This document shows positions 13,278 to 62,100 of a stretch of 64,000 nt of DNA, in pieces (the first letter of the stretch is position 1; each line of letters opens with the position of its first letter). This stretch comes from Fibrobacter sp. Its GTDB lineage: Bacteria; Fibrobacterota; Fibrobacteria; Fibrobacterales; Fibrobacteraceae. The stretch is taken from positions 310,001 through 374,000 of the forward strand of contig JAFPWY010000011.1 of the NCBI GenBank assembly GCA_017412605.1. The letters are read 5' to 3'. Under the pieces are notes generated by a model. The model was not told the origin of the DNA and searched no databases. It saw nothing but the letters and a program-made list of their open reading frames with translations. The position numbers were made by a program, and so were the translations under genes.

Positions 13278-14219
13278 TTAATCGTTAATCATCCTTTCGT
13301 AGAATTTACGATACTTGTCCTTGTCTTCCGTCTTGCGGACAGCGATGGCGTCTTGCGGGTGACGGTTGAGCATGCCCGTAATCATCTGCGGAATGATGTA
13401 GCCCCACTCGTACTTGGTGTGCAGCGGGAGGAACAGTTCCTGGATGGCGTCGAGAACCGGACGCAGGTCGTACTTCGGGTTCTTGAGGAAGCTGAGCAAA
13501 AGTTCGGTGGTGCAGTTGCCGGCGCCGCGACCCATGCCCGACACGGAACCGTCGAGGTAGTCCACGTGGTTGATGATGGCCTGGATCGTGTTGCTGAAGG
13601 CGAGCTGCTGGTTGTTGTGACCGTGGAAGCCGAACTTCTTGTTCTTCACGATGCTCTTGTAACGCGCGAGTTCCTTGTCGATGTCTTCCTGGTAGAACGC
13701 ACCGAAGCTGTCAACGAGGTAGAGCACGTCGGCCTTGCATTCTTCCTGCACCTGGTGGAGCGCTTCGTCGAGTTCCGGACCGCGATCACGGCTCACGGCC
13801 ATGATGTTGAGCGTCGTCTCGTAGCCCATGTCGTGGAAGGCGTTCACCATGCTGATACCCTTGTCGATGTTCTTCACGTAGCTGGCCACGCGGAACATCT
13901 GGTAGGGGCTTTCGCTGGCGGGCTTCACGGCGTCCATGTTCACGCGGCCCACGTCGGCCATCACGGCCATCTTCATCTTGGATTCAATGCCGTCCTTGAC
14001 CTTCCAGAGCAGGTCGTCGTCGCAGAACTTCCATGGGCCGTATTCCTTGGGGTCAAAGAGTTCGGGGGAGTTCTTGTAACCCATTTCCATGTAGTCGATG
14101 CCGGCTGCCGAAAGGAGCGTGTATAATCTACGCACGAATTCAAGAGAAAAATCGTGTTTGTTGACGAGGCCGCCGTCGCGGATGGTGCAGTCGAGGACTT
14201 TGATAGTTTCGTAGTACAT
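13278..14219 (-). CDS. DRE-TIM metallolyase family aldolase
   Basis: Member of the HMG-CoA lyase/4-hydroxy-2-oxovalerate aldolase/isopropylmalate synthase superfamily. The barrel opens with LDCTIRDGG (the metal-binding Asp and neighbouring Arg) and has the second metal motif HGHNN near residue 200, followed by GMGRGAGN. At 313 residues it is a single catalytic domain. It lacks the C-terminal communication domain of authentic DmpG aldolases and the allosteric domain of synthases. The substrate is not evident. Similar stand-alone proteins occur next to nucleotide-sugar or polysaccharide genes elsewhere, but no such neighbours are seen here. It has its own terminator. Confidence 0.75.
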   Translation of the reverse strand: MYYETIKVLDCTIRDGGLVNKHDFSLEFVRRLYTLLSAAGIDYMEMGYKNSPELFDPKEYGPWKFCDDDLLWKVKDGIESKMKMAVMADVGRVNMDAVKPASESPYQMFRVASYVKNIDKGISMVNAFHDMGYETTLNIMAVSRDRGPELDEALHQVQEECKADVLYLVDSFGAFYQEDIDKELARYKSIVKNKKFGFHGHNNQQLAFSNTIQAIINHVDYLDGSVSGMGRGAGNCTTELLLSFLKNPKYDLRPVLDAIQELFLPLHTKYEWGYIIPQMITGMLNRHPQDAIAVRKTEDKDKYRKFYERMIND

Positions 14220-24808: not shown

Positions 24809-26992
24809 CTATTTCATGTCGCGGATGATGTCGCGGAGGCGGGCAGCTTCTTCGAAGTCAAGGCGTGCTGCAGCTTCCTTCATCTGGCGTTCGAGATCTT
24901 CCAGCCGTGAGCTATCAGCCGTGAGCGGTGAGCCTTGAACCTCGGACCTAGAGCCTTTCTTTCGTCTTTCGTCTTTCGTCTTTCGTCTAGAACTGGGCTG
25001 TAGCGGTTCCATCGGGCGGATGCCGGTATTGTCGTCATCCCAGTCGTCGACGGAGTCATCACCGATATCTCCGAGCGGGTCGTTGATTCTCAGGTCGTCT
25101 TCGAGCTTGCGGGTCACGGACTTCGGCGTGATGCCGTGTTCCTTGTTGAATTCTTCCTGCACGCTGCGACGGCGGGCGGTTTCGGTGACGGCCTTCTCCA
25201 GGCTGTCGGTCATGTTGTCGGCGAAAAGGAGTACCGTGCCGTTCACGTTGCGGCTTGCGCGGCCCATCGTCTGGATAAGGCTTCTGTAGTTGCGCAAGAA
25301 ACCTTCCTTGTCGGCGTCGAGTATGGCGACCATGCTCACTTCGGGCAGGTCGAGGCCTTCGCGCAGCAGGTTGATGCCGACGAGTACGTCGAATTCCCCG
25401 GTGCGTAAGCCCCGAATCAGTTCATGGCGTTCCAAAGTCTTGATGTCGCTGTGCAGGTAGCGCGCACGGATGCCCGCTTCCACGAAGAAGTCGGTAAGGT
25501 CCTGCGCCATCTTCTTGGTGAGCGTCGTGACGAGCACGCGGTCGCCGTTCTTGACGACTTCCTCGATGCGGTACAGGAGTACGTCCATCTGGCCCTTGAT
25601 GGGGAACATCTCGATTTTTGGGTCCAGAAGCCCGGTCGGCCTGTTAATTTGTTCGGTGACCACACCGTTCGTCTTGGTGAGTTCGTAATCGCCGGGTGTT
25701 GCCGAAACGAAAAGCACCTGCTTCGGGTACATGTACTCGAATTCGGCGAAGTTCATCGGGCGGTTGTCGAGTGCGCAGGGGAGGCGGAACCCGTACTGCA
25801 CCAGCGTCGTCTTGCGGCTCTTATCGCCCTCGGCCATGCCGCCCACCTGCGGAATGCTCACGTGGGATTCGTCCACCATCAAAAGCCAGTCGTCGCCGAA
25901 GTAGTCAATAAGCGTGAAGGGACGCGTACCCGGGGCGCGGTTCTCAATGATGCGGGAGTAGTTCTCGATGCCGCTGCATTGGCCCGTTTCGCGGATCATT
26001 TCCATGTCGTAGCGGGTACGGCTGCTGAGGCGGGCCGATTCCAGCACCTTGCCTTCCTTGTCGAGTTCGGCGAGGCGTTCGGTCAGTTCCACCTGCATGC
26101 GCTGCAAGATGCCCGCGCGGCCTTCTTCCTTCGTGACGAAGTGCTTCGCCGGAGCGATGGTCATCTCGTCCAGGTCTTGCGTGACTTCGCCGGTGACGAT
26201 GTTGAAGCGCACGAGTCGGTCCACCTCGTCGCCGAAAAGTTCAATGCGCAGGCCTTCTTCGTCGTAGCTCGGGTGGATCTCGATCACGTCGCCGTGCACG
26301 CGGAAAGAGCCACGTTCCAGGCTGAAATCGTTGCGGGTATATTGAATGCGCACGAGGTCGTGCAGAATCTTGTCGCGGTCGTACACGTCACCCTTCTTGA
26401 TGCGAACCATCAGGTCGAAATATTCCGAGGGGCTGCCCAAGCCGTAAATGCAGCTTACGGAGGCGACGATAATTACGTCGCGGCGGGTGAGCAAGTTCGC
26501 GGTGGCGCGTAGGCGCAACTTGTCAATCTCGTCGTTGATGCTCGCGTCTTTCTCGATGAAGGTGTCCGTGTGCGGGATGTAGGCTTCGGGCTGGAAGTAG
26601 TCGTAATAGCTCACGAAGTATTCCACCGCATTGTGGGGGAAGAACGCCTTGAATTCCTGGTAGAGCTGTGCCGCGAGCGTCTTGTTGTGCGTGAGGATCA
26701 GCGTCGGCTTGCCCACGTTCTTGATGACGTTCGCCATCGTGAAGGTCTTGCCCGAACCGGTCACGCCAAGGAGCGTCTGGAACTGTTCCCCATTCTTGAA
26801 ACCTTCCGTCAGTTCTTCAATCGCTTTTGGCTGGTCACCCGCCGCTCCGTAAGGGCTCACGAGCTCGAAGTTCGCGCGCGTGTTGGACTGGAACTGTTTC
26901 AAGTGCCCCGGCAAGCTCTGCTCGGGCGGTAGCGGTTTCGCTATCGGTTTCGCATACGGGTCCGGAGTGATTGTCTTGCGTGCGCGGGCCAT
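24809..26992 (-). CDS. uvrB: Excinuclease ABC subunit B
   Basis: Damage-verification helicase of nucleotide excision repair, partner of UvrA and UvrC. Walker A is GVTGSGKT. The damage-probing beta-hairpin is in YYDYFQPEAYIPHTDTF. The Walker B region is MVDESH. The C-terminal UVR motif that contacts UvrC (LERQMKEAAARLDFEEAARL) is intact. I choose the ATG at 26992 (MARARKTITPDPYAKP); the frame extends further upstream to 27109, but that part has no family character. Between the helicase core and the UVR motif lies an unusual basic segment (about residues 667-698) encoded by an intergenic-type repeat with a heptanucleotide tandem array. The linker is flexible in UvrB, so activity is probably retained. 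Confidence 0.95.
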   Translation of the reverse strand: MARARKTITPDPYAKPIAKPLPPEQSLPGHLKQFQSNTRANFELVSPYGAAGDQPKAIEELTEGFKNGEQFQTLLGVTGSGKTFTMANVIKNVGKPTLILTHNKTLAAQLYQEFKAFFPHNAVEYFVSYYDYFQPEAYIPHTDTFIEKDASINDEIDKLRLRATANLLTRRDVIIVASVSCIYGLGSPSEYFDLMVRIKKGDVYDRDKILHDLVRIQYTRNDFSLERGSFRVHGDVIEIHPSYDEEGLRIELFGDEVDRLVRFNIVTGEVTQDLDEMTIAPAKHFVTKEEGRAGILQRMQVELTERLAELDKEGKVLESARLSSRTRYDMEMIRETGQCSGIENYSRIIENRAPGTRPFTLIDYFGDDWLLMVDESHVSIPQVGGMAEGDKSRKTTLVQYGFRLPCALDNRPMNFAEFEYMYPKQVLFVSATPGDYELTKTNGVVTEQINRPTGLLDPKIEMFPIKGQMDVLLYRIEEVVKNGDRVLVTTLTKKMAQDLTDFFVEAGIRARYLHSDIKTLERHELIRGLRTGEFDVLVGINLLREGLDLPEVSMVAILDADKEGFLRNYRSLIQTMGRASRNVNGTVLLFADNMTDSLEKAVTETARRRSVQEEFNKEHGITPKSVTRKLEDDLRINDPLGDIGDDSVDDWDDDNTGIRPMEPLQPSSRRKTKDERRKKGSRSEVQGSPLTADSSRLEDLERQMKEAAARLDFEEAARLRDIIRDMK
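24908..24992 (-). repeat. Intergenic-type repeat embedded in uvrB, with TTTCGTC tandem array
   Basis: On the plus strand, 24961-24988 holds four consecutive TTTCGTC units. They are preceded by GAGCTATCAGCCGTGAGC and GGTGAGCC words that resemble the GAGC/TATGAGC repeats found after stop codons elsewhere in this window. The whole segment is read in frame within uvrB. Confidence 0.6.
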
Positions 26993-60900: not shown

Positions 60901-62044
60901 AAAGAACGTGACAAGCGCTGACCTGGAAATGCTCCATATGTCGTTCCCGTGGTACAGCTTCCGTGGCCTCCTGATTCAGCTGATGGCCAGCCCGGATGAA
61001 CTGAGCCTGGATCCGAAGGATTCTTCTCGCGTTGTCTGGAATGTGCGCAGCAGTACGCCGCTCACGACAGGCGTAACCAGCATTAGCGAAGACCTGCCTC
61101 CTGCGACAGTCTACACCTACTACGACGTATTGGGCGAGACGTTCGTGAACGAGGAAAATGCGGTCATCGTCGATAAAATGCCTCCGGTTATTGTGGGCGC
61201 CGTGCTCAATTACGGTTCGAAGGCGGATTCCCTGGCGGTCACCTTCTCCGAAGTCGTGCAGTACCAGGATCTGGAAGGCCGCGATTACTTCCGCTATATC
61301 CACGGAAAGGACGTTATCGACCTTCTGCCGAGCAGCATTCTGTGGTCGAGCGATGGACGCGTTGCGACGCTGGTCCTCGACGGAAGCGTTGCAACGATTC
61401 TGCCGGGCGACTCCCTCATGGTGGTGCGTGGCGCGAAGGACGACATCAGGGACAACTACGGCAATATCGCTGGCGAGAAACCGTCGCCGGTCGTCATCGC
61501 CGGCTTGCTGAACCACCTGGTGGAATCCACAAAGATGGGCCGTTTCGACGATGCGGACGAAATGTACCGTACGCTGAGTTCCGTGAACCTGCGCTATGTC
61601 CCGAGCACTGTGACGAAGGAAGATCTCGAGAAGGAAGGCGCCCTGGGTCAGTTGGTGCAGTTGGGCGAACGGTTTGTGCCGCAACTTGTCGACCGTGCGC
61701 AGATATCGGCCGATGGTACGGTTGACCCGTCCGTGCTCGATTCCCTGAAGCCCGAGAACATCTTCATCACCTTCGTGGTGAACTACTACGATCACCTTGG
61801 CCAGTACGTGAACGACACCTCCATCACCGTGCAGTGCAACAGCTGGAAGTTTGGCGGAAACTGCTTGGATACCGACAAGAAGGTGTTCGTGAACTGGAAC
61901 TTCAAGGACCATACCGGCCGCTTCGTCGGTACGGGTGTGTACATGGTCCAGTTCAAGATGGTCGTGAAGTACGAAAAGAAGAAAATCGAGGAAGAAGTTA
62001 AGGACAAGTGGGGCGTCCGCCGCAGCAAGAAGCGCAAGAAATAG
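57929..62044 (+). CDS. Giant secreted protein with propeller-like N-terminus, Ser/Gly linker and repeated beta-domains
   Basis: 1371 residues, signal peptide ending near AFGAS, and GGAGG before the ATG at 57929. Residues ~30-420 have features of a beta-propeller (GADGIVHHPDGSLIVAA, VWHLMVDPNQKYVWAAG, DGHGHLFVAS). About 435-580 is a Ser/Gly/Asn linker of SSSS and GGNGG units. The rest is Ig-like repeats with Asp-rich openings (DSDGDKVLD, DTDGDGVLD). The end matches the preceding gene: GGNCLDTDKKVFVNWNFKD, GRFVGTGVYMVQFKM, then a Lys/Arg-rich tail. It is probably surface anchored or released and may act with the upstream protein. Function unknown. Confidence 0.75.
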   Translation: MMKMAKWLITVGVLGLVSYAFGASTYGEPSNPATGIWIQQVGDIVPHAATTETLYYTKYAQNDRVKSLDYYYDGNGYLQLKNKKILCTEGDGMSGADGIVHHPDGSLIVAAQGSTVYKVSKTAGAGNKRCIVASATTKSGVWHLMVDPNQKYVWAAGIPGKLHRIQITKDKPNAFDNEGYRVKLTKTSGDRVFHDSLATLIWDKEGNAFFTYSNYYGGGCERYDNDPSSPVGYDFRNCTADERKHEAAKAYFGYITDTTKVYVKNKTMSDTLHAPVGDSAITKMQVKILIDSLEGAHGGTYDPYSNTIFVFGGAKIVQIKPQRKNGKMTASIVGTIDLHDYFFDDSYDNLTEPRTDDHVGWRLDQGTVDGHGHLFVASNTGHMVFVDYTSNSQKYITDNILVHVQWIDNWLDDLAPLDVVEEIRSSANQGHDQLSSSSMGISSSRQEYSSSSKPKSSSSSKKVSSSSKGNSSSSGGNGGGNSSSSKITSSSSGGNGGNGGSSSSKKVSSSSGGNNNGSSSSGGNGGNNSSSSKGKSSSSGGNGGGNSSGKDGDGDDFPDESSSSNKNGSGDDFPDGSSSSRVYVGFDDYEDDKGALDFYPSNDNYEDGDSLVSDVGVMIPVDSADGTPGTVKVGENVYMKENNPISPMDLRYGSGLDSAQVGQVVAIVLDSAQIKKIFGNSVDSIMVVPRGNIDLVNPSNASRPDSIVYNADGSVVIWVTADTVVDKGSIYVVGNGKVAIIDNINFYDPIPDARIGFVKDSDGDKVLDFQEILLKDPLPAGIVVKSIEDVIKGKTKKVNSVIEVNASRDRLIMDVSDISFPEKFPEDAYAIITYETENGTCYTRKVQLLEVGNNVINSSFAIRDKAGKDSLFIKFNIDLIPADIVNPDMLVMLKQELDRHGFDLEDISNAYMPSRNMVVLVGKDLGLKGKNKDSVSLYPNVTFENLQYITSDEYEREVPVKVIDRVPSVKNVEYRDTDGDGVLDQIVTNFTKNVTSADLEMLHMSFPWYSFRGLLIQLMASPDELSLDPKDSSRVVWNVRSSTPLTTGVTSISEDLPPATVYTYYDVLGETFVNEENAVIVDKMPPVIVGAVLNYGSKADSLAVTFSEVVQYQDLEGRDYFRYIHGKDVIDLLPSSILWSSDGRVATLVLDGSVATILPGDSLMVVRGAKDDIRDNYGNIAGEKPSPVVIAGLLNHLVESTKMGRFDDADEMYRTLSSVNLRYVPSTVTKEDLEKEGALGQLVQLGERFVPQLVDRAQISADGTVDPSVLDSLKPENIFITFVVNYYDHLGQYVNDTSITVQCNSWKFGGNCLDTDKKVFVNWNFKDHTGRFVGTGVYMVQFKMVVKYEKKKIEEEVKDKWGVRRSKKRKK

Positions 62045-62100
62045 CTATGAGCACGGGCTCCGCCCTTTGAGCTGTGAGCCCGGGTGCAAAGCCCCCTGTG
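62045..62100 (+). repeat. Stop-codon-adjacent TATGAGC repeat, copy after the giant gene
   Basis: The TAG is followed by CTATGAGCACGGGCTCCGCC then CTTTGAGCTGTGAGCCCGGG. The two halves can pair (CGGGCTC with GAGCCCG). It shares TATGAGC and CTTTGAG with the copies at 20531 and 62141. Confidence 0.6.

Follow-up and report, generated by a model that had tools for sequence, protein, structure and literature searches.

The four-unit, 7-bp tandem array that lies in frame in uvrB of the Fibrobacter genome analysed here is very probably one copy of a four-heptad cassette that is scattered over the genomes of the genus and tolerated within genes, and not a phase-variation switch. Fibrobacter is a genus of gut bacteria, and UvrB is a DNA-repair protein. 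The cassette was found at many loci, usually with exactly four units; at orthologous sites its place was taken by a GTAG hairpin, a single unit or heptads with a different word; and in the uvrB linkers examined it was always in frame. The features of the locus are listed below by their positions in the window, by which the whole stretch of 64,000 nucleotides analysed is meant.

24809..26992, minus strand: uvrB (NCBIfam NF003673 and TIGR00631, E < 1e-290; ORF list)
24824..24910, minus strand: UVR motif, residues 694-722, downstream of the repeats (Pfam PF02151, E=1e-8)
24902..24957, no strand assigned: degenerate heptad tract with words of the GTGAGC / GAACCTC / GGACCTA type, between the array and the UVR motif
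24917..25099, minus strand: predicted disordered linker, residues 631-691, acceptor of the repeats (AlphaFold2, pLDDT < 50)
24958..24988, minus strand: four-heptad cassette (TRF, 7-bp period, 4.4 copies, 100% match)

The gene was identified by its match to the UvrB profile (NCBIfam, E=5e-298), with the UvrB domain (Pfam) ending at residue 629; its start, the ATG at 26992, was assigned by eye, the reading frame upstream of 26992 still being free of stops. Four perfect TTTCGTC heptamers were located in the linker at 24960-24987. The cassette reads (AGACGAA)4AGA on the coding strand (31 bp; (TTTCGTC)4 on the plus strand) and encodes the peptide RRKTKDERR. The initial annotation had described a 7-bp tandem array in frame in uvrB, and this was borne out by the presence of the TRF array, a plain four-unit direct tandem repeat, inside the profile-identified gene. 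In the adjoining heptad tract, TRF revealed periods of 7 and 14 at 24902-24938, and the remainder of 24902..24957 was recognised by eye. AlphaFold2 modelling with 26 sequences yielded pLDDT values below 50 for residues 631-691 and placed helices of the UVR region at residues 690-708 and 712-725. The cassette thus sits in a predicted disordered linker and probably leaves repair intact.

The insert had been put at about 30 residues, a size that is correct when measured on the general UvrB profile (687 residues over 658 model positions) but not when measured on relatives, as the segment after ITPKS measured 306 nt here and likewise 306 nt in the array-free relatives L045, L047 and L060. The array proper contributes about 6 codons (SSKTKKKG versus SSRRKTKDERRKKG), and the GTGAGC-type tract substitutes for other linker sequence. 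GTGAGC words had also been reported after stop codons elsewhere in the window; a string of them does occur past a stop at about 62041-62080, but the near match at 13784 was an isolated word. A motif scan of the 64-kb window revealed no second array of the uvrB type, and single TTTCGTC words were present at chance level (16 versus 14.65 expected).

Genome-wide, the repeats were mapped by pattern searches, with the reversed pattern as control. Tandem TTTCGTCTTTCGTC gave 42 matches, the tandem pattern with one free base per unit 107 and GTGAGCNGTGAGC, covering the GTGAGC-type heptads, 32, each against 0 in the control. This agrees with the description of an intergenic-type repeat with copies outside uvrB, which were plentiful elsewhere in the genome, and the dispersal of tandem 7-bp units over many loci is as seen in heptameric tandem-repeat families. 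Screening of 151 relatives detected (TTTCGTC)3 in 40, namely in 39 Fibrobacter genomes and in a single relative from a different genus of the family, and in none beyond the family. The array recurs over genome and genus and is nearly missing outside the genus.

Regarding unit number, the 100 of 107 own-genome matches that were listed comprised one run of 3 units, 18 of 4, two of 5 and one of 8, and about half of the 2-unit runs were parts of hairpin elements. Over the genus, perfect runs of 3, 4 and 5 units numbered 31, 58 and 1 among the matches listed. Arrays outside long ORFs, between genes, peaked likewise at 4, so that selection on frame alone is insufficient to account for the peak. The peak is sharp and genome-wide, unlike the tail expected from slippage.

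To a 7-bp unit in a coding region the initial annotation had attached two claims. The first, that gain or loss of one unit shifts the frame and removes the UVR motif, was confirmed by simulated changes of 0-8 units: the motif was kept only with 1, 4 or 7 units and was lost with 3 units (700 aa) as well as with 5 (682 aa). The second, that excision repair could vary by slippage, amounts to a contingency locus, where 7-bp slippage would toggle full-length, UvrC-competent UvrB and give rise to reversible repair-deficient cells. Like phase-variable simple repeats, the array consists of tandem units inside an ORF, with a unit length not divisible by 3, and unit number does vary in nature (1 in L303 versus 4 in L055). 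However, the UVR motif was in frame in 68/68 complete Fibrobacter linkers, and not one of these 68 alleles, collected across the assemblies, was frame-broken; one further linker runs off its contig, and four loci without a search anchor were left unscored. L303 and L055 are near-identical downstream, the difference of exactly 21 bp between them corresponding to 3 units and preserving the frame. The alleles found across species had no unit numbers other than 4 and 1 and were all in frame, as against the out-of-frame polymorphism by which contingency loci are recognised. Further differences from such loci are the peak at 4, with 3 and 5 units being rare between genes as well, the late position in the gene, the array-free uvrB of most Fibrobacter species and the housekeeping nature of the targets; these include secA, which is essential and whose off state would be harmful. 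With all complete linkers in frame, unit numbers peaking at 4 and an observed change of 3 units, variation of repair by slippage was not supported. An on/off switch for repair is unlikely, and reversible toggling at a contingency locus has very little to recommend it. L150, with a match length not divisible by 3, was considered as a slippage allele and rejected: it carries no array, and since its linker and UVR motif read in one frame, any frame shift lies upstream.

Comparison over the genus revealed a UvrB core, from GDQPKAI to ITPKS, of 574 aa in 40 genomes, save for 575 aa in the more distant L113, and a segment after ITPKS of 99 to 180 aa across the wider Fibrobacter set. The linker is thus variable in length and sequence over the genus and not conserved. 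Besides the own genome, four-unit uvrB arrays were present in L044, L046, L053, L055 and L061, to which the wider set added L293, L295 and L332; L096/L296 carries a four-unit array with one substitution, and L303 and L307 carry one unit each. This places the four-unit module in uvrB of 9 further species assemblies.

Mapped on the core tree, which holds 7 bearers, the presence of the array called for 7 changes, of which 4 or more were forced by well-supported branches. Six bearers share a near-identical array and the same left flank, yet their core third positions differ by 18-28%. On this sequence comparison, the array allele was probably spread by interspecies recombination or retained from an ancestor with frequent loss; selection or recombination could be further causes of the near-identity. 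An array nearly unchanged in six diverged species would also be expected of an adapted linker, in which the basic DERRKTK segment is selected to tune the contact of UvrB with DNA, UvrA or UvrC, and the hydrophilic reading is indeed the one found in ORFs. Against such adaptation, which we regard as highly improbable, stand the unrelated residues at the same place in other species, the same peptide in unrelated proteins and the patchy presence of the array.

Ancestral uvrB linkers contain KTKKK codons with one AGACGAA-like word, and array-free relatives carry AAGACGAAGAAGAAG at the site. From such a word the array might have grown locally by slippage, with no incoming element, and the one-unit alleles of L303 and L307 would fit this course. 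Slippage, however, would be expected to spread the unit numbers instead of making them peak at 4. In addition, many unrelated sites carry the same 4-unit cassette, hairpin and array replace each other at a given site, and the uvrB linker of G012 has another 4-unit array elsewhere along its length; local growth is therefore considered unlikely. In G007, two uvrB copies were observed, the one on contig C42 (L321 / L109) with four separate 4-unit arrays in its linker, in the last of which the contig ends.

Other repeats, of a REP-like type, were found to occupy the same linker. Array-free species carry in-frame words of the types GAGATCCCCGCC..GGGGATGAC (peptide EIPAFAGMT), GTCATTCTGAGC..GAAGAATCC (peptide VILSGARSAKSKNP) and GTCATTGCGAG..GCAATCC, as well as CCTTCGACAAGCTCAGG, and a recognised repeat word was matched in 45/69 uvrB linkers by regular expressions whose word list was picked by eye, making this count a descriptive one. 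At the exact site of the uvrB array, L058, L064, L101, L104 and L115 carry a hairpin of the form AGACGAGAGAACG-stem-loop-CTACAGACG, encoding RRENARKRA. Among 20 copies of the hairpin variants, GTAG was present in 15 and ATAG in 5, and 16 had a perfect stem of at least 3; nine different stem sequences, mostly self-complementary, occurred in one genome.

In-frame arrays were further detected in the own genome in SecA, RsmG, HrpA, HrpB, LarC, a ModF-like ABC ATPase, an SNF2-family helicase and a protein with a weak Peptidase_MA match, and a UvrA-type protein carries a longer array variant. The sense strand in these genes is the purine strand, giving the hydrophilic DERRKTK. In L016:294-1682 (minus strand) the hydrophobic reading FRLSSFV was observed, apparently contributing to the signal peptide of an S41-peptidase lipoprotein. 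A CobA-HemD-like protein (L009:153-1982, plus strand) contains a hairpin-type copy and, in frame, a number of distinct segments derived from repeats. From species to species, the RsmG loop bounded by RHIADSLVPYIYI and WADMGAGAG varies as the UvrB linker does, and so does the SNF2 loop that follows KQICNHPATFLKG; both are stop-free in the readings shown. SNF2 sequences labelled NO_END either have SGKM or lie outside the range searched. In rsmG (L173-L202) and in the SNF2 helicase gene (L203-L232), a single loop each was seen to have repeatedly taken up repeats of several families, in frame, over the genus.

Orthologous sites were inspected by comparing the own array sites with three close genomes (G012, G030 and G017). 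In hrpA, hrpB, secA and the L015 gene, four units tend to persist while the word alternates between TTTCGTC and TCTCGTC. The L014 site holds the hairpin in two relatives, and one unit was found in G030 at hrpB and at the L017 site. At the L027 and L010 sites, comparison with L278, L280 and L286 showed heptads with a different word (CTACTTC, CTACTGT, AACTCAN) in place of the array. Exchanges and replacements were what was found in the uvrB relatives, at the own array sites and in the G007 uvrB copies, instead of simple empty sites. Insertion as an event is what we infer, since a clean empty site with target duplication was found in none of these three comparisons; the nearest to an empty site was the SNF2 locus L208 versus L209/L211, with a net 30 bp by eye.

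A tolerated, genome-scattered cassette would arrive or be copied at many places, stay where additional hydrophilic residues are no burden on the protein, and be lost elsewhere under selection on frame. It is easy to tolerate, as no stop codon arises in any of its six reading frames and a change by three units equals 21 bp. A search for the Y1 (RAYT) transposase, PF01797, gave zero matches in the 99.5% complete genome, with E. coli and other controls being positive, and a REP transposase as the mover was rejected on this basis. With no REP-type Y1 transposase found, gene conversion, template switching or interspecies recombination would be the likeliest copying routes. We tentatively suggest, as a possibility with the odds against it, that the cassette and the GTAG hairpin represent alternative states of one RAYT-less family, whose putative machinery would insert modules of a constant 4 x 7 bp, at times with a different word, into those loops of housekeeping genes that repeatedly act as acceptors.

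The repeat family fits the known pattern of intragenic repeats, the closest being Rickettsia palindromic elements and GTAG/CGTC REPs. Of the latter, many lie within repair genes, including two in uvrB of R. conorii (PMC3733652, where Fibrobacter is unmentioned). Shared with these REPs are short intergenic repeats in frame in repair and RNA-helicase genes, the GTAG tag in 15/20 Fibrobacter hairpins and, by eye, CGTC-like inserts in other Fibrobacter uvrB genes. In contrast, the window copy is a palindrome-free tandem heptad array, showing neither the stem-loop nor the GTAG tag that mark this superfamily, and the genome is without a Y1/RAYT transposase. Rickettsia palindromic elements, reviewed in PMC10969869, resemble the cassette in that one family lies in frame in many unrelated genes (here SecA, RsmG, HrpA, HrpB, LarC, SNF2 and UvrB) and is read as tolerated; they differ in being palindromes of ~150 bp compared with a 31-bp tandem array, and in Fibrobacter several repeat families use one acceptor linker. 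Heptameric tandem repeats have been described in Xanthomonas/Nostoc (PMC4692102) and Beggiatoaceae (PMC4679880), the Xanthomonas arrays having mostly four units. They likewise form tandem 7-bp units at many intergenic loci, but the Fibrobacter array is without G-tracts for a quadruplex, is often in frame in genes and exchanges with a hairpin. No paper on these repeats in Fibrobacter was found among the open-access literature.

The interesting features are the constancy of four units, the exchange with the hairpin and the repeated use of the same acceptor loops. The turning of intergenic repeats into protein sequence, as seen in Rickettsia, is extended to another bacterial group with a much smaller element of fixed unit number, and how such repeats are copied is a question raised by their size of four units, by the exchange of array and hairpin and by a genome lacking a Y1 transposase. 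The linkers and loops of UvrB, RsmG and the SNF2 helicase can be read over dozens of species as a measure of the insertions a protein tolerates. A 7-bp array in an ORF is not always a phase-variation switch, and the repeats in the uvrB linker look like tolerated genomic clutter and not like an on/off switch for repair.
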